From: Chloroflexota bacterium
Lineage (GTDB): Bacteria; Chloroflexota; UBA11872
NCBI GenBank assembly: GCA_026706485.1
Contig: JAPOYR010000011.1
Coordinates: 496,001-560,000, forward strand
Direction: 5' to 3'
DNA length: 64,000 nt
In this document: positions 9,498 through 47,774 of the stretch, piece by piece
How positions within the stretch are numbered: position 1 is the stretch's first letter
Layout of the letters: every line of letters starts with the position of its first letter
The notes under the pieces: model-generated
Seen by the model: the letters and a program-made list of their open reading frames with translations, nothing else
What the model was told of the DNA's origin: nothing
Databases searched by the model: none
Position numbers and translations under genes: made by a program

Positions 9498-9583
9498 CCC
9501 CGCTGAAGCAATCCGCCCGACGTAATACCATGGCGCCGGCGCCGCGATCGGAGCGGCGCCGTTCAGCGGAGCAACGCAGGTCC

Positions 9584-10147
9584 ATGCAGGTCACCGGGTC
9601 CCGTCGAACCGCGCGCCTCGGGCGCGCCATTTGCGCGTTTCTGGGCGGCGTTTTCCTCACCGCCGCCCTGGCGGCCTGCGGCGAGTCGAGCCGCTTCTCC
9701 GACCTGGCGCCAACCCCTGAGCCGACCCCGGCCGTCGCCCAACTGCTGGCCATGGTGCCGGCGGGACGGACCGCGCCGAACCTGGCCCCGGCGCCGCCCC
9801 CGCGGACGCCCGAGGCGGTGGTCACCATGGCGGCGCCAACGCCCATCGTGATCGAGACGCCGACCCCGGCGGTGGACGGGACCAGCCCCACCCCGCCGCC
9901 ACCGACGGCGCCGCCCAGCGACTTGCCACCCGGTCATCAACTCTTCATCGCCAACGGCTGCACGGTCTGTCACGCCGAAGACCTGAGCGGCGGCATCGGA
10001 CCGGCTCTCGCGGGGCGGACCGTTGACGATCTGACCGAGGAGCGCATCCGCCAGCAGCTCGGCGAGGGCGGCAACGGCATGCCGCCGTTTCCCGACTTGA
10101 CGGAAGAGCAAATCGTTCAGCTCATGGAATTCATTCGCAGTTCCTGA
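9584..10147 (+). CDS. c-type cytochrome lipoprotein, copy 1
   Basis: 187 residues: basic n-region (SRRTARLGR), hydrophobic core and lipobox LAAC with C32, then a Pro/Thr-rich stalk, then a single cytochrome c domain. The heme site is C126-T-V-C129-H130, and the axial Met is probably M166 in NGMPPF. The frame opens at 9530, but the ATG at 9584 aligns with the GTG start of the paralogue at 10939. The protein would sit on the outer face of the membrane and carry electrons. It is followed by the first UGA-containing redoxin, and the pair is repeated downstream. Partner unknown; electron transfer to or from the redoxin is an inference from context. Confidence 0.9.
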   Translation: MQVTGSRRTARLGRAICAFLGGVFLTAALAACGESSRFSDLAPTPEPTPAVAQLLAMVPAGRTAPNLAPAPPPRTPEAVVTMAAPTPIVIETPTPAVDGTSPTPPPPTAPPSDLPPGHQLFIANGCTVCHAEDLSGGIGPALAGRTVDDLTEERIRQQLGEGGNGMPPFPDLTEEQIVQLMEFIRSS

Positions 10148-10217: not shown

Positions 10218-10886
10218 TTGCGCGTCGGAATCGTCGCAGCGATCGCGTTGACGGTGGTCCTGGCGGCGTGCGGCGACACCACCGCGCCGGCGGAACCTGT
10301 GGCCGAGTCCGCACCGGCGGCGACCGCAGCCTCCGCGCCGGCGACGGCCACTGCCGCTCCCCCGCCCGCGCCAACACCGCAACCGACTGCCACGCAGGCG
10401 CCACAGCCAGCCGCGACGCCGACCCCGCCGCCGGCCCCAGCAAGGCCAGTTGCCGTCGACTTCTCGCTTCCGAGCGCCCAAGGCCCGCAGTACACCCTGA
10501 GCTCATTCGCCGGGCAGCAGCCGGTGGTCGTCGTGTTCTACCGCGCCTTTTGGTGAGGGACCTGCCGCACCCAGCTCGTGGAGCTGCAAAAGAACTACGA
10601 GGAGTTCCAGGCGCGCGGCGTGGAGATCCTTGCCGTCAGCACCGACTCGCTGGAAGACACCGCCGGCATCGTGGAGCGGGTCGGCATCCAGTTCCCCGTG
10701 CTCTACAACATCGAGGGCAACGTTCCCCGCGAATACGGCATCTTCAATCTCTACGGCGACGGGCTGGCGACGGGGTCGGCGTTCCTGGTCGATCTTGACG
10801 GGAACCTGGCCTGGAAGTCGATCTACAGCGGCATTCACGACCTGATCACGTCAGCCGACATCCTGGCGGCCATCGACGAGTTGTAG
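10218..10886 (+). CDS. Selenocysteine-containing redoxin lipoprotein, copy 1 (in-frame TGA at 10554)
   Basis: Read through TGA 10554-10556, the product is 222 residues: lipobox LAAC (C18), a Pro/Ala/Thr stalk of about 60 residues and a 143-residue thioredoxin-fold AhpC/TSA-type domain. The active site reads [17 protein letters not shown], whereas Cys relatives have FYR..W-C-PYC-R.QL. The TGA (codon 113) is therefore at the peroxidatic cysteine, and the second Cys is retained at 116. The frame before and after is the same, with conserved sequence on both sides. Downstream of the TGA is a SECIS-like hairpin (10572-10586). TTG 10218 is preferred as start: GAGGAG lies 7 nt upstream, and the signal peptide then aligns with copy 2. 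GTG 10203 is an alternative. Probable role: extracytoplasmic peroxide or disulfide reduction. Confidence 0.9.
10572..10586 (+). promoter_or_regulatory. Bacterial SECIS-like hairpin, copy 1
   Basis: CAGCTC-GTG-GAGCTG is a perfect 6-bp stem with a three-base loop that begins with G. The loop begins after 21 intervening nt from TGA 10554-10556. Bacterial SECIS elements lie inside the reading frame just downstream of UGA, with a small apical loop holding a G in its first two positions, and this fits. The same hairpin recurs at the same place in both paralogues. It encodes QLVEL, so protein conservation could also explain part of the identity. Confidence 0.75.
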
Positions 10887-10938: not shown

Positions 10939-11493
10939 GTGAAAGTCACCGAGTCTCGCCGAGCCGCACGCCTCGGGCGCGGCATTTGTGCGCTGCTTAG
11001 CGGTGTAGTCCTCGTCGGCGTCGTGGCCTGCGGCGAATCGAGCGGCTTTTCACTCCTTGTGCCCACGCCGGAACCGACCCCGGTCATCGCCCACTCGCTG
11101 GCCATGGTCCCAGCGGGGCGGACCGAACCTCCCTTTGAGCCGTCTCCCACAGCCCGTCCGGCGGACGAGGTGCCCACCCCGCCACCTCCCACACCTCCTC
11201 CAACCCCGACGCCGACCCCGATCGGTACGCCGACCCCCACGCCGACTCCACCCCCGCGCGAGGATCTTTCCCCCGGACATCAGCTCTACGTCGACAACGC
11301 CTGCGCGACCTGCCACGCCCAAGACCTGAGCGGCGGCATCGGACCGCCGCTTGCCTGTCGTACTCCAGAGGACCTACCAGAGGACCGCATTCGCTCGCAG
11401 CTCGCCGACGGCGGCAATGGCATGCCACCGTTCCTTGACCTGACGGAGGAGCAGGTCGGTCAGCTCATCGAGTTCATCCGCGGCTACTGCTAG
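10939..11493 (+). CDS. c-type cytochrome lipoprotein, copy 2
   Basis: 184 residues, a paralogue of the cytochrome at 9584 over its full length. It has a GTG start, basic n-region (ESRRAARLGR), lipobox VVAC (C31), a stalk rich in Pro-Thr, and a cytochrome c domain with heme site C122-A-T-C125-H126 and Met162 in NGMPPF. Two extra cysteines distinguish it from copy 1: PLACRT replaces ALAGRT, and the protein ends in Cys. They could form a disulfide. It is followed by the second UGA redoxin, so the cytochrome-redoxin pair appears tandemly duplicated. Confidence 0.9.
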   Translation: MKVTESRRAARLGRGICALLSGVVLVGVVACGESSGFSLLVPTPEPTPVIAHSLAMVPAGRTEPPFEPSPTARPADEVPTPPPPTPPPTPTPTPIGTPTPTPTPPPREDLSPGHQLYVDNACATCHAQDLSGGIGPPLACRTPEDLPEDRIRSQLADGGNGMPPFLDLTEEQVGQLIEFIRGYC

Positions 11494-11562: not shown

Positions 11563-12600
11563 GTGCGCGTCAGGGTCATCGCGGTCGTCGCGCTGGCGGT
11601 CGTACTGGCTGCGTGCGGCGACACGGTCGCGCCGGCGGAACCCGCCGCCGAAGTGGCGCCCACGGCCACTGCAACTCCGCCGCCGGCGCCAACGGACACT
11701 CCCGCGCCGCCGCCACCCGCGCCGACGCCCACCAGCCCGCCGACGCCCACCGCCACTCCCGCGCCGACTCCGGTAGCCGTCGCCGCGGCGCCTACGCCCA
11801 CCGCCGTCCCGGCGCCAACCTCAACGCCTGTCCCCGCACCCACGTCCACTCCGGCCCCAACGCCCACGCCGGCGCCCGTCCCAACGTCGACGCCACAACC
11901 CACGCCCACGACGGCAGCCGCGCCGACACCGACTCCGGCTCCTCAACCGACGCCCACGCCGCAGCCCACGCCCACGCCGCAGCCGACTCCGACGCCGGCG
12001 CCCGAACCCACACCAACACCGCAACCGACGCCGACGCCAGAACCCACGCCAACACCGGCACCGACGCCGACCCCCGCGCCTGAACCCACCCCAACACCGG
12101 AGCCGACGCCGACACCACAACCAACCCCAACGCCAACAGCCGCACCGGCCACGGCCAGGCAGGCCGCCGTCGACTTCTCGCTGCCAAGCGCCCAGGGGCC
12201 GCAATACACCCTGAGCTCATACCAAGGGCAGCAGCCGGTGGTGGTGGTCTTCTACCGCGCCTTCTGGTGAACGACCTGCCGCACCCAGCTCGTGGAGCTG
12301 CAGAAGCACTACCAGGAGTTTGAGTCTCGGGGCGTGGAGGTCCTCGCCGTCAGCACCGACTCGCTGGAAGACACCGCCGGCATCGTGGAGCGGATCGGGA
12401 TCCAATTCCCGGTGCTCTACAACCTCGAGGGCAATGTTCCGCGGGAATACGGCATCTTCAATCTCTACGGCGACGGGCTCGCCACGGGGTCGGCGTTCCT
12501 GGTCGATCTTGACGGGAACCTGGCCTGGAAGTCGATCTACAGCGGTATTCACGACCTGATCAGGTCCACCGACATCCTGGCGGCCATCGACGCGCTGTAG
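11563..12600 (+). CDS. Selenocysteine-containing redoxin lipoprotein, copy 2 (in-frame TGA at 12268)
   Basis: 345 residues when TGA 12268-12270 is read as Sec. A GTG start follows GGGAG. Lipobox LAAC (C18). The stalk (residues about 19-202) is a long run of Pro-Thr-Pro repeats, three times that of copy 1. The redoxin domain (203-345) is again 143 residues and nearly identical to copy 1, including FYRAFW-U-TTC-RTQL with U at 236 and Cys at 239. The stalk probably projects the domain through the wall or outer layer. All else (frame, hairpin, context) is as in copy 1, so an accidental stop is unlikely. Confidence 0.9.
12286..12300 (+). promoter_or_regulatory. Bacterial SECIS-like hairpin, copy 2
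   Basis: CAGCTC-GTG-GAGCTG at the same distance from TGA 12268-12270 (21 nt to the loop) as in the other copies. The preceding codons differ (ACG ACC against GGG ACC), so the hairpin is kept while the codons next to the TGA vary. Confidence 0.75.
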
Positions 12601-12699: not shown

Positions 12700-13677
12700 A
12701 TGGTGCGAATCGGGATCATCGCGGTGGTTGCGTTGGCGGTCGTCATGGCCGCGTGCGGCGAAGCCGCCGAGCCCGCGGAACCCGCCGCCGAGGTGGCGTC
12801 CGCCGCAACCGCAAGTCCGCCGCCCGCGCCAACGCCCACCAGCCCGCCGTCGCCCACCACCGCTCCCGCGCCGACCCCGGTAGTCGTCGCCGCGGCGCCA
12901 ACGCCAACCGCCGAGTCTGCACCGACCTCGACGCCTGTGCCCGTGCCAACGCCGACGCCGGCGTCCACGCCAACGGCGGCTCCGACTCCGACTCCCGCAG
13001 CGACATCAACGCCGCAACCCACACCGACTGCGGGGGCGACTCCGACGCCTTCGCCCGCGCCAACGCTCGCACCCGCACCTACGCCGACGTCGGCGCCCCA
13101 GCCCACACCAACGCCGAGAGCTACGCCAACCCCGCAACCCACGCCGACGCCGCGACCGACTCCCACCCCCGCGCCTCAGCCCACGCCGACGCCACAGCCG
13201 ACCGCCACGCCGACACCACCCCCGACATCGGCCAGACCGGCCGCCGTCGACTTCTCGCTGCCGAGCGCCCAGGGTCCGCAGTACACCCTGAGCTCATTTC
13301 AGGGCCAGCAGCCGGTGGTGGTGGTGTTCTACCGCGCCTTCTGGTGAACGGCTTGCCGTACGCAGCTCGTGGAGCTGCAGAACCACTACCAGGAGTTCCA
13401 ATCGCGCGGCGCGGAAATCCTGGCCATCAGCACCGACTCGCTGGAAGACACCGCCGGCATCATTGAGCGGATTGGCATCCAGTTCCCGGTGCTCTACAAC
13501 ACCGCGGGGGAGGTGCCCAGGGCCTACGGCGTCTTTGACCACTTCGGCGACGGCTTGGCCGTGGGATCGGCGTTTCTGGTGGGCCTCGACGGCACCGTTG
13601 CCTGGAGCTATGTCTACACTGGCATCTACGACCTGATCCCGTCTGCCGACATCCTGGCGGCCATTGACGCGCTGTAG
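12700..13677 (+). CDS. Selenocysteine-containing redoxin lipoprotein, copy 3 (in-frame TGA at 13345)
   Basis: 325 residues when TGA 13345-13347 is read as Sec. ATG start shortly after GGGAGGG; an adjacent GTG at 12703 has better spacing. Lipobox MAAC (C19). Pro-Thr-rich stalk to about residue 182, then a 143-residue redoxin domain with FYRAFW-U-TAC-RTQL (U at 216, Cys at 219). The C-terminal half is the most diverged of the three (YNTAGEVPRAYGVFDHFG against [18 protein letters not shown]), so it has been kept for some time after duplication. It lacks its own cytochrome partner and sits 99 bp after copy 2. Confidence 0.9.
13363..13377 (+). promoter_or_regulatory. Bacterial SECIS-like hairpin, copy 3
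   Basis: CAGCTC-GTG-GAGCTG, here extended by one G-C pair to a 7-bp stem, 21 nt after TGA 13345-13347. The sequence between TGA and hairpin has changed at several positions relative to copies 1 and 2, while the stem and loop have not. Confidence 0.75.
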
Positions 13678-15505: not shown

Positions 15506-16687
15506 CTAGAGCGACTTGATGTAGGCCACGATCGCGAGGAGCTCTTCGCGCGAGAGCAACGTGTCGAGATCGGCCTGCATCAGGCCTGCTTCGTATCCCT
15601 CGACCACTTCCGCGTTGGGGTCCACGATCGCGCGCAGCAGATAGGCGTCGTCGGCGATGACCGTTGAGCCGTCGGCCAGCGTGACCTGGCTGAGGTAGAC
15701 GCCCTGCCAGGTGGGTCCGGTGCCGTCGGAACCGTCGGCGCTGTGGCACGCCTCGCAGCCGATGGCGCGGACGAGCGATGCCCCCAAGGCCGGATCAGGC
15801 GGCGGCGCGGTGGGAGTGGGCGTGGGCTCCGGTATGGGCGTCGGCGTTGGCTCTGGTGTGGGCGTTGGCTGCGGCACGGGAGTCGGTGTGGGCTGTGGCG
15901 TAGGCGTTGGCACCGGCGGGGGCGTGGGTGTCGGTTGCGGTGTCGGCGTCGGTGCCGGAGTGGGCGTCGGCGACGGAGTCGGGGTGGGTTCAGGCGTTGG
16001 CGTAGGTTCGGGCGTCGGTGTCGCGGTCGGTGCGGGGGTGGGGGTGGGTTCCGGCGTTGGCGTGGGCGACGGCTCGGGTGTCGGGGTGGGCTCCGGGGCC
16101 GCCGTTGGTTCCGGCGTGGGAGTCGGAGTGGCCGCCGCCGTGGGCGTGGGATTGAGTGTGGGCGACGGCTCGGGCGATGGCGTGGGCGACGTCAAGACGA
16201 CGTCTCGAGCTTCGGAGAAACCCATGACGTCTTGGATCAAGACGGTGCGGGAACCCGGCGACACATCCTGGAATACGTGCGTGAGGATGCCGTCGGAATG
16301 AGTGGTCTGATTCGGAGGGCGTCCATCCAGGGTGACACGGACATCGACGCCGGCGAACACCTGCAATTCGACGGTCACAGTGGAGTCCTCGACGGACATG
16401 CGGTGAATGTCCCACTCCCGGGTCGGCCGTGGGGTTGGGGAGGGCGTGGGTTCGCGCGTCGCTGTAGGCGCCAGCATGGCTGCGGTGGTCGGCGTTGACG
16501 TAGGCGTAGGGATAGATGTGGGGGACGAGGCCGGTGGCGTTGCCGCTGCCGGCGGCTCCGTGGTGTCCCCGCAAGCCAGGCAAAGGAAGCCCAAGGCGAC
16601 GACCAGGCCCGCTATTTGGAAGATGCTCAAGGGACCCTTCGAGTGGCGTTTGGGTGCGAGTCGACGGCCGCTTGCGCGCCTATGCAC
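15506..16687 (-). CDS. Pro-Thr-stalk lipoprotein with cytochrome c domain
   Basis: 393 residues. Lipobox CLAC (C39), then a PEGA-like beta segment ([20 protein letters not shown]), then a stalk of about 125 residues of Pro-Thr/Pro-Glu repeats, then a C-terminal cytochrome c domain with CEACH and a likely axial Met in AGLMQAD. The domain resembles small cytochromes linked to oxidase subunit II. It is related in layout, not in close sequence, to the cytochromes at 9584 and 10939. GTG 16687 is the longest start; a TTG at 16630 with AAGGG upstream would shorten the n-region. Confidence 0.87.
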
Positions 16688-25114: not shown

Positions 25115-25804
25115 ATGTCGGTATCCGGGCCGCTCGACGAAACCACCTTTGCCGCGCTGAAGGCCGCCGACAGCCCCACGGTGTCGAACGCCATCGAGGA
25201 GCTGGGCGTGCGCGACCATCGGGTCGGGTTCGCCGGGTCGACCGTGCGCTGCATATATCCGGAGCTTGGCATCACGCTGGGATATGCCGTCACGGCGCAA
25301 ATCGACACCACGGGACCCGGCCCGATCGACGTGGGCCGCGGCATGCGGGAGTTCGCCGAGCTGCTCGCCGCCGCCCCCAAGCCCGCGATCGTCGTCGTGC
25401 AGGATGTCGGGCCGCATAAGGCGCGCGCGGCGATGTTTGGAGACTACGCCGCCACGCTCTACCGCGCGCTGGGCGCGGTGGCCTTCGTCACCGACGGCGC
25501 CATTCGCGACATTGACCAAATGCGCGAGATGCGCTTTCCGTGTTTCGCCGCGGGCACGTCGGTCTCCCACGGCAACCCGCGGCGCATCACCATGGACATT
25601 CCAATCGAGATCGATGGCATGGTGGTCGAGCCGGGCGACCTGATTCACGGCGATGTGAACGGTCTGCTCAACGTGCCGCTGGCGGCCGCTGCAGACCTGC
25701 CGGCGCAGGTGGAGCATGTTCGCGTCACCGAGCGGGCGGCCATGGACGCGCTGATCGGGCCGAACGCCTCGGTGGACGAGGCGCTCTCGAAGATGGGGCA
25801 CTGA
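25115..25804 (+). CDS. RraA family protein (HMG/oxaloacetate aldolase-like)
   Basis: 229 residues. RraA-fold motifs: SPTVSNAIEELG, the glycine-rich VDVGRG-like and GDYAATLYRALGAVAFVTDG, then the metal/substrate motif GAIRD. Family members are 4-hydroxy-4-methyl-2-oxoglutarate/oxaloacetate aldolases or unassigned, despite the old 'methyltransferase' and 'RNase E regulator' names. Ribosome site GAGGGAG upstream. Four bases separate it from the isomerase gene, so both are probably co-translated and act in one sugar-acid pathway. Confidence 0.9.
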   Translation: MSVSGPLDETTFAALKAADSPTVSNAIEELGVRDHRVGFAGSTVRCIYPELGITLGYAVTAQIDTTGPGPIDVGRGMREFAELLAAAPKPAIVVVQDVGPHKARAAMFGDYAATLYRALGAVAFVTDGAIRDIDQMREMRFPCFAAGTSVSHGNPRRITMDIPIEIDGMVVEPGDLIHGDVNGLLNVPLAAAADLPAQVEHVRVTERAAMDALIGPNASVDEALSKMGH

Positions 25805-45017: not shown

Positions 45018-47774
45018 TCACCGATCCGTTGGGCGTCGGCCTGCTCGCCGCAACATCGAGCGGCAACGGGAGAGGTCGACACCGTTCACCACCAGGCTCG
45101 CTGCCACACCTCCGGCGGCGACGGCGGCGATGGCGATGCCGAGGTCATACCAGCGCTGGGGGGCGTATTCGAAAGTGATCGCCGAGCCTTCGGCAACCGG
45201 CAAGAAATAGCCGTTCCAGAGGCCATCCGCGAGCAGCGGAGCGAATGCCTCGCCGTCCACCCAGGCCAGCCAGGTGGGGTCGTAGGCCCGGCGGAGGACG
45301 ATGAACGCCCAGCCACCGGCGCCGCGCGTGGTGGCTTCGATCCGCGTGAGCTCGCGCGTCGAGACTTCCAGGCGCGGCCGGACCAGCGCGGGCGAGGCCT
45401 GAGCCGACGTCGGACGCCATGCGGTGGGCGCGAGGGCCAGGGTGCTCACGGCTTCGAGCCCGGGACCGGCGGTGACGCTGACGTCTCCCTCCGCCGCGGT
45501 CCCGACCCGCATCCAGCGCCAGCCCGTGGTCGGAGACGTGGTGGTGAGCCGCGCGCTGGAGCTGGCGGTCGCAACGTTGATCCAGGTCGAGCGAGGGCTG
45601 GTGAAGACACGCAGCCAGACGGCGCGGTCGCGGTCGGCGGGGACGGGAATCCGCAGCGCCGCACGCTCGCCTCCGGGCGTGGCGAATGCCAGGCCCAGGC
45701 CGTAGTCCGACGCCCAGTCATCGAGGTCCTCCCGCCCAAGGCGCTTGAGCCAGGACTGCCGCTCATCCGCGTAGGCGCCGCCACGGGTCCAGCCGCCCTT
45801 CGAGCCGTGGAAGCCAAACCAGCCAGTGACGGGCATCAGCTCGACGTTGTCCGCGACGGCGAAGATTGCGTCGGTGGTTGGCTGCGCCGGGAAGACTGAG
45901 TCTGGCAGCGACGGGCGCACCCGGTGGTTGGCCAGGACGCGCGTGACGCCGGCAGGGGCGGCAAGGTCGAGTGTGTCGCTCCAAACGGCGCTGGAGGCTT
46001 CGAGCAGCGGCACGGCGGCGCCAAGATCGAACGCCAAGACGTTCGGGCCGGACGCCAGAACGGCAGCGTCGGGCAGCGCGGCGAGGGCTGCGGCCAACTC
46101 CTCACCGGCCAGTTGGTCGCGCATTACCACCACGTGGCTGAATCCCGCCCGGTGGGCGGCGGCAAGCGCCTCGGCAGGCTCGACGCCGTAGACGAACTCG
46201 ATCCATCGACCGGGGATGGAGGACGGCGGCGCCGGTGAACGCGTGTCGCCAGTGAGGGATGGGTTTGCCAGGCTTGCCGCCTCCATCAAGCGCAGCGTGC
46301 GCGCCGGGTCCCAGGGCGCGGGCCGGTCGTCGGAGGACACGACCAGGATTCGACCCTCCGGCCCGGCGGCCCCGTCCGCCGCCCGCAACACGTCGCGATA
46401 GTCCGCCGGCAACGGCCGGGGAACGTAGCCGGGTTGATCGGTGCTCCACAGGAGCGGTACGGCGGGCGCGGCATGGACGCTAAGCGCGACAACCACATAG
46501 CCGACGAGCAGTGCGGGCGCGAACGCGCTGCGCGTCCACCCACCGGCCGCAACCCGGCTGAGAAGTTCGGTGACCACGAATCCGGCGCCAAAGGCCTGCG
46601 CCATGATGAGCAGTCCGACCACCCGGTCCGGTTCGCGAAAGACCCACAGGCCGGGAATGGTGTTCACGGCTGCTTGATACATGTCGGCCGTGAGCGCCCA
46701 GTTCGACGTGGCCGCGACCAAGGCCGCGGCATACCCCCCAACGGCGAGATAGAGCGCCGGCGGTCCCCAACGGCGTAGGGCGACGGCCGCCAGCGGCAGC
46801 GCCGCCACCGCCCAGCCGGCGAACTCCCAGGGCAGCCGGCTGGCGCCGGCGGGAACCAAGAGCTCATGCCAGTTGGCGTTGGCGGCTCCCTGGAGCGTGG
46901 TCGGCAGGTCCTGGTGGCGCGCGAGCACCGTGCGCGTTTGGTCCATGAGGGTGTAGGCCGGGTCGGGGCTGCCCCCGAAGAGCTTGACGGCCACATACGG
47001 CGCGATCTGATAGGCGAGCAGCGGGACGACTGCCGCCGACCACACGAGGCCGTCGGTCAGCGCCCGGCGGCGCTTGACGGGGCACTGCACCATCGTGCCG
47101 ACGACCCACGCGGCAATCATGAGCGTGGTGAAGACCAGGTAGTGGGGTTGCGCGGCGCCCAAGAGCGCGAAGACGAGGGCGGACCCAACCGTCCAGCGCC
47201 GTTGCCCTGTTCGCGTGCCCTCGAGATAGAGCCCCAGCACGAGTGGGGCCGCCGCCCATTGAGCCAGCAGCCAGCTGTGCTCCAGGCGCGCGATGGTCCA
47301 GGGATTGACCACCAATGCCACCGCCGCGACCATGGCGCCCATGGCTGCGCAGGTGCGAGGAGTCTCAGGGCGCCAGCGGGCGAACAACGCAAAGGCCGTA
47401 AAGGCGCTGACATATCCGACGCCCGCGATCCACAGCACGATCAGGCGGGCATACGTCGCGCCGTCCATGCCAAGCGCTTTGGCAACACCAACGAGCGTGA
47501 GCGTGATCGGCAGGCGTCCGGTGCCCGCGATGCTCAGCGTCTCGCGCGGCGACCACAAGGGATAGACGCTGTGCTCGACGACGCGATCCAGGAAAAGCGA
47601 GGGATAGAGGTCACGCTGCTGCAAGTCGCCAGGGCTCGTGATGACGGCCCAGAACACGGCTACGACAATCAGCGCGCCGACGCCGAACGCCAGCGCCCAG
47701 GGGCTGGCCATCCGCCCGCCAAGTCGCCAGAGGGCAGCCAGCGGCGAAGGGCTGCGACCTGGGCGGCGAGTCAC
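45018..47774 (-). CDS. Large GT-C/YfhO-like membrane protein 1
   Basis: 918 residues. About 11-12 N-terminal membrane spans, a long soluble extracytoplasmic domain (residues about 480-880) with beta-rich sequence, and one span near the C-terminus. The first loop carries QQRDLYPSLFLDR after a short span, where GT-C glycosyltransferases hold their catalytic Asp. It is likely to act in lipid-linked sugar transfer outside the membrane. Start: GTG 47774 or, more typical for the family, the internal ATG 47711. The other two members are at 51581 and 60052. Confidence 0.8.
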   Translation of the reverse strand: MTRRPGRSPSPLAALWRLGGRMASPWALAFGVGALIVVAVFWAVITSPGDLQQRDLYPSLFLDRVVEHSVYPLWSPRETLSIAGTGRLPITLTLVGVAKALGMDGATYARLIVLWIAGVGYVSAFTAFALFARWRPETPRTCAAMGAMVAAVALVVNPWTIARLEHSWLLAQWAAAPLVLGLYLEGTRTGQRRWTVGSALVFALLGAAQPHYLVFTTLMIAAWVVGTMVQCPVKRRRALTDGLVWSAAVVPLLAYQIAPYVAVKLFGGSPDPAYTLMDQTRTVLARHQDLPTTLQGAANANWHELLVPAGASRLPWEFAGWAVAALPLAAVALRRWGPPALYLAVGGYAAALVAATSNWALTADMYQAAVNTIPGLWVFREPDRVVGLLIMAQAFGAGFVVTELLSRVAAGGWTRSAFAPALLVGYVVVALSVHAAPAVPLLWSTDQPGYVPRPLPADYRDVLRAADGAAGPEGRILVVSSDDRPAPWDPARTLRLMEAASLANPSLTGDTRSPAPPSSIPGRWIEFVYGVEPAEALAAAHRAGFSHVVVMRDQLAGEELAAALAALPDAAVLASGPNVLAFDLGAAVPLLEASSAVWSDTLDLAAPAGVTRVLANHRVRPSLPDSVFPAQPTTDAIFAVADNVELMPVTGWFGFHGSKGGWTRGGAYADERQSWLKRLGREDLDDWASDYGLGLAFATPGGERAALRIPVPADRDRAVWLRVFTSPRSTWINVATASSSARLTTTSPTTGWRWMRVGTAAEGDVSVTAGPGLEAVSTLALAPTAWRPTSAQASPALVRPRLEVSTRELTRIEATTRGAGGWAFIVLRRAYDPTWLAWVDGEAFAPLLADGLWNGYFLPVAEGSAITFEYAPQRWYDLGIAIAAVAAGGVAASLVVNGVDLSRCRSMLRRAGRRPTDR

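Follow-up and report, generated by a model that had tools for sequence, protein, structure and literature searches.

A tandem array of stalked UxxC redoxin lipoproteins in Chloroflexota with selenocysteine predicted in the active site

The gene at 10218–10886 of a 64,000-nucleotide stretch of Chloroflexota DNA (the window; contig JAPOYR010000011.1, positions 496,001 to 560,000) is strongly supported by sequence comparison as encoding a selenoprotein: Prx1, a redox protein anchored to the membrane, whose active site would carry selenocysteine (Sec) specified by an internal TGA. The UGA at 10554 is very probably decoded as Sec by SelB and tRNA-Sec together with an mRNA hairpin, yielding a lipid-anchored protein that sequence and a high-confidence structural model assign to the peroxiredoxin (Prx)-like UxxC thiol:disulfide oxidoreductases. 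The Prx1 family is already known to include selenoproteins, and neither its class of chemistry nor its decoding system is novel; what is new is a two- to three-copy array of stalked Sec lipoproteins that recurs throughout the genus, in most cases with cytochrome c lipoproteins interspersed. The genome is a Chloroflexota metagenome-assembled genome (MAG) of 3.37 Mb in 13 contigs, about 98% complete, from a lineage that is probably sponge-associated, judging from isolate names.

Translation of 10218–10886 revealed a frame with a single internal stop, the TGA at 10554–10556, that is otherwise open until the TAG at 10884–10886. A lipoprotein signal (VVLAAC followed by G) precedes a Pro/Thr/Ala-rich linker and a redoxin domain, and when the TGA is read as a residue, the PF00578 (AhpC/TSA) match spans it as one domain (residues 79–199, E 5.8e-28), which confirms the earlier note's observation of an in-frame TGA after which the same frame continues into the rest of an AhpC/TSA-like domain. 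Signal, linker and modelled fold show Prx1 as a putatively lipid-anchored, extracytoplasmic thioredoxin-fold UxxC protein on a flexible Pro/Thr stalk, with the following parts:

10218–10886, forward strand: Sec redoxin lipoprotein 1 (Prx1), with lipobox LAAC, Pro/Thr stalk and AhpC/TSA domain
10155 (ATG), 10203 (GTG) and 10218 (TTG), forward strand: candidate in-frame starts of Prx1, the exact start being uncertain
10269–10271, forward strand: lipobox Cys codon of Prx1 (lipobox LAAC)
10446–10883, forward strand: AhpC/TSA domain of Prx1 (PF00578)
10554–10556, forward strand: TGA of Prx1, read as selenocysteine at position one of UxxC from translation and homologue alignment
10563–10565, forward strand: Cys of UxxC in Prx1, aligned with the peroxidatic Cys of peroxiredoxins

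Prx1 is the first of three tandem paralogues in the window, a copy number that the earlier note did not state, with TGA at the same codon in each (10554, 12268 and 13345). All three share FYRAFW-U, differ within UxxC (U-GT-C, U-TT-C and U-TA-C) and score 97.8, 97.4 and 101.5 bits, respectively, against PF00578, above its gathering score of 26. The rest of the array comprises:

9530–10147, forward strand: cytochrome c lipoprotein (PF13442) ending at a normal TGA stop, the conserved immediate upstream neighbour of Prx1
10939–11493, forward strand: second cytochrome c lipoprotein (PF13442), between Prx1 and Prx2
11563–12600, forward strand: Sec redoxin lipoprotein 2 (Prx2), with TGA 12268–12270 and a long Pro/Thr stalk
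12700–13677, forward strand: Sec redoxin lipoprotein 3 (Prx3), with TGA 13345–13347 and a long Pro/Thr stalk

Another cytochrome c protein, the third, carries a very long Pro/Thr stalk; it is encoded beside the array at 15506–16687 on the reverse strand and is conserved there in the genus. Genes for acetyl-CoA synthetase and a GFO/IDH/MocA oxidoreductase flank the array in 6/6 genomes of the genus. Its basic unit is one cytochrome c lipoprotein plus one Sec redoxin, laid out as cyt-Prx-cyt-Prx in three congeners, cyt-Prx-Prx in two and cyt-Prx-cyt-Prx-Prx in the window's genome. Lipobox and stalk are present in all complete redoxin copies read, with about 40 to 275 residues between lipobox and active-site motif. 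In two congeners (loci L152 and L153) a calcium-binding Excalibur domain (PF05901; the one tested scored 39.2 bits) is part of the stalk of the second redoxin copy, in keeping with a predicted extracellular position; this domain is absent from the stalks of the window's copies. The catalytic domain of Prx2 groups with the Prx1 type and its N terminus most resembles second-copy redoxins of congeners (89% to L151 4259–4506); these mixed affinities of signal and stalk (11563–12160) and catalytic domain suggest that Prx2 is chimeric, having arisen by recombination between copies in the array.

The neighbourhood raises the question of whether the redoxins act as selenol partners of the cytochrome c lipoproteins, either in a surface electron-transfer module or in ResA-like haem-c maturation. 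Cytochrome c lipoprotein genes adjoin the Sec redoxins in 6/6 genomes of the genus, the lipobox and stalk of the window's cytochromes resemble those of its redoxins, and in alignments UxxC matches the DsbE/ResA CxxC. However, no CxxCH open reading frame (ORF) occurs near the redoxin in the more distant loci read from other genera (L154–L156), so the cytochrome association is established at genus level only, and a Cys-type redoxin directly adjoining the only CcdA/DsbD-type gene found in the genome (on contig C2) is the stronger candidate for that maturation role. Next to the array itself, no dedicated CcdA was seen, nor were cytochrome c maturation genes recognised there. We therefore regard such a partnership as unlikely. 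The more elaborate idea that electrons pass between the stalked Sec redoxins and the monohaem cytochrome c lipoproteins interleaved with them, coupling external peroxide or disulfide chemistry to the respiratory chain, is a long shot.

Alignment to solved structures placed FYRAFW-U-GT-C of Prx1 on FFPLAF-T-GI-C of AhpE, the Mycobacterium tuberculosis 1-Cys peroxiredoxin that is also its closest solved fold. The Sec column thus corresponds to the Thr of PxxxTxxC and to the first Cys of the DsbE/ResA CxxC, and Cys40 falls on the peroxidatic Cys (CP); a multi-family alignment gave the same placement, so that the earlier note, which put the TGA at the peroxidatic Cys position, was off by three residues. 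Arg33 stands where peroxiredoxins have Pro, and Gly replaces the catalytic Arg of AhpE (R116, marked by the R116A entry 4xih); where AhpE has P-T-C-R, Prx1 has R-U-C-G, retaining 1/4 catalytic-tetrad positions (CP). The PxxxT/SxxC(U) signature and catalytic Arg of canonical peroxiredoxins are accordingly missing, whereas UxxC occupies the thioredoxin CxxC position in all three copies. The reading of Prx1 as a canonical peroxiredoxin whose peroxidatic residue is Sec would fit the PF00578 membership and the AlphaFold prediction for the redoxin domain (pLDDT 95.5, pTM 0.91), which has a peroxiredoxin/thioredoxin fold and finds peroxiredoxins as its top matches, AhpE being the best (Z 23.6, rmsd 1.6 over 144 residues). 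These residue placements make that reading improbable, as do true TxxU Sec-peroxiredoxins with Sec at the peroxidatic position, which occur separately (L055, L056 and L117; FYPKSFTGGUTHEL, FFPAAFTPTUSGQM); those of L055 and L056 belong to the same order and carry Sec three residues further on than Prx1. Because Sec sits on the Thr, Cys sits on CP, and the peroxiredoxin Pro and Arg are lost, Prx1 is by its sequence a UxxC Prx-like thiol:disulfide oxidoreductase (predicted activity), not a canonical peroxiredoxin. ResA, TlpA and DsbE share with it the aligned CxxC, extracytoplasmic location and thioredoxin fold, but Prx-type fold matches rank higher for Prx1.

A class-wide search with a profile built from four redoxin copies revealed exactly one TGA in 29/29 close homologues (E<=1e-25) from 17 genomes of the class, and the TGA column was identical in the homologous loci read; named relatives carrying homologues are Chloroflexota/Chloroflexi MAGs. 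Chance or sequencing error at the Prx1 TGA is ruled out by the same-codon TGA in the paralogues and in all 29 homologues. Cys occupies the Sec column only in distant homologues from other phyla (for example, FYRGGWCPYCNLQL, in a multi-family alignment), and this U/C exchange around an in-frame UGA with conserved flanks is the pattern by which bacterial selenoproteins are recognised. Downstream of the TGA, comparison of Prx1 with its orthologues from five congeners gave dN 0.012–0.037, dS 0.24–0.48 and dN/dS 0.04–0.12, values that show purifying selection on this half of the gene. The earlier note's expectations of conserved sequence on both sides of the TGA and of homologues carrying TGA or Cys at the site are thereby borne out, and the degraded downstream sequence that it would have taken as counter-evidence was not seen among homologues in the 17 genomes. 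The same data bear on the possibility that the TGA is a real stop, leaving a pseudogene or short lipoprotein, with GTG 10578 starting a separate 102-residue protein. A mechanical ORF does begin at that GTG, and the organism ends other genes with TGA (11/35 likely genes). Yet the codons between the TGA and the GTG (GTCRTQL) are conserved in all copies, the downstream half is constrained as described, no degraded copy turned up in the 17 genomes, and the 102-residue product would lack the whole active site, making a genuine stop scarcely credible.

Selenocysteine insertion in bacteria calls on a SECIS hairpin, and one is predicted downstream of each TGA:

10572–10586, forward strand: predicted bacterial SECIS hairpin of Prx1, CAGCTC-GTG-GAGCTG, with the loop 21 nt after the TGA
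12286–12300, forward strand: predicted SECIS hairpin of Prx2
13362–13378, forward strand: predicted SECIS hairpin of Prx3, with a 7 bp stem

The hairpin, (G)CAGCUC-GUG-GAGCUG(C), with G opening the loop, keeps the same register in 32 distinct sequences, its loop lying 20–21 nt after the TGA. The QLVEL motif also constrains the hairpin sequence at the protein level. In the pair counts, 96% of cells were paired, compared with 19–51% in slid control registers, and 10 cells were changed on both sides, compared with 3.2 in shuffles (0/500 shuffles as high). The covariation is clearest where the third base of a Gln codon pairs with the first base of a Leu codon, positions at which changes on both sides are synonymous: CAG..CTG occurs 25 times, CAA..TTG 10 times, CAG..TTG (a G-U pair) twice and CAA..CTG never. 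In the genus carrying CAA..TTG, TTG is used at 0/98 other Leu codons of the domain. The switch between CAG..CTG and CAA..TTG is seen inside the genus (L037), between genera (L040–L047) and in a deltaproteobacterial homologue (L083 versus L078/L090). The folding energy of a single hairpin is not unusual, about 9–17% of dinucleotide shuffles being as good, and the SECIS case therefore rests on covariation and fixed position. With G first in the loop and this covariation, the predicted hairpin fits a bacterial SECIS element.

The Sec machinery that the earlier note proposed to look for is complete in the genome: tRNA-Sec(UCA) (70.1 bits; anticodon TCA by ARAGORN), which lies on another contig than the window; selB (289 bits); selA (489.5 bits), which shares the window's contig; and selD (375.5 bits), a gene that itself contains an in-frame TGA (...GAG-U-ACK...). 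In the window itself, neither Rfam at gathering thresholds nor ARAGORN gave any hit. Across genomes, tRNA-Sec scored above the Rfam cut-off in 17/17 bearing close homologues versus 17/24 others. Together with the retained TGA and the constrained downstream sequence, this machinery upholds the note's central claim of a selenoprotein. Genome-wide reassignment of TGA, for example to Trp, has a negligible chance of being right: the Prx1 TGA is sense and directly follows TGG, but TGA terminates 11/35 likely genes in the window, and in most of these reading through would add 0–29 codons, homologues carry Cys rather than Trp at the Sec column, and the genome has a dedicated tRNA-Sec and SelA, SelB and SelD. 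At 25804, what looked like another read-through (298 codons) proved to be an RraA gene followed by a separate AP_endonuc_2 gene with TGA-GCG-ATG spacing, and no Pfam match was found in the 149 codons by which reading through would lengthen the minus-strand ORF that ends at 45018.

In the mechanism that we propose, an in-coding-sequence hairpin 21 nt downstream would direct SelB and tRNA-Sec to insert selenocysteine at UGA 10554. At the cell surface, the Sec37 selenolate would then attack a peroxide or a disulfide, and Cys40 would resolve the resulting Se-S or Se-OH intermediate to a selenenylsulfide. Re-reduction could come from a thiol donor outside the cytoplasm, for which a CcdA/DsbD-type membrane relay is one possibility. 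Sec likely confers speed and resistance to over-oxidation, and two or three tandem copies may provide a higher dose or a more varied reach. This Chloroflexota lineage would thus spend selenium on exported, lipid-anchored redoxins. Annotation with TGA as a stop would truncate each gene, and three proteins would be lost. The array also offers a clean example of a predicted SECIS within a coding sequence, covarying through synonymous changes on both sides of the stem.

Prx-like thiol:disulfide oxidoreductases (PF00578, UxxC/UxxU) are among the high-confidence predicted selenoproteins (2026 review PMC13188914, Table 1; PMC9312934), and an ocean survey counted 'Prx-like 1' (pfam00578, UxxC) 225 times (PMC2398784). 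The proteins described here have in common with them PF00578, Sec as the first residue of UxxC and many Cys homologues, and differ in the lipid anchor, the Pro/Thr stalk and the tandem arrays of two or three copies, mostly beside cytochrome c lipoproteins. Since the chemistry class and decoding system were already known, nothing is overturned; the literature searched held no description of stalked Sec lipoproteins arrayed in tandem beside cytochromes, and searches for selenoproteins in sponge Chloroflexota gave nothing relevant. NCBIfam models would leave Prx1–3 unnamed, because none reaches its cut-off and scores fall far below. The best NCBIfam match by E-value, the SelL-related redox protein NF040769, shares the Prx-like domain, but Prx1–3 score 52.9–56.3 bits against its cut-off of 120. 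They carry UxxC, whereas SelL proper has a UxxU motif. The Rcas_1661 family (NF041057), whose name points to Roseiflexus castenholzii, a Chloroflexota, comprises thioredoxin-like selenolipoproteins that also have UxxC, but at 18–33 bits against a cut-off of 190, Prx1–3 represent a different subfamily. Rcas_1661 has been listed as DsbG-like UxxC (PMC13188914).

Elsewhere in the same genome lie at least three more TGA-containing UxxC redoxins that are likely selenoproteins:

L012/L156 (G000:C7:67391–67843): further UxxC redoxin, FYRGFFUGICRAQLVEL
L013 (C4:355976–356206): further UxxC redoxin, FYRGHWUSHCRRQL
L016 (C3:51662–52057): further UxxC redoxin, FLRHVWULSCHGY

The SelD with Sec (L028, C1:28817–29743) is likewise a likely selenoprotein of this genome.
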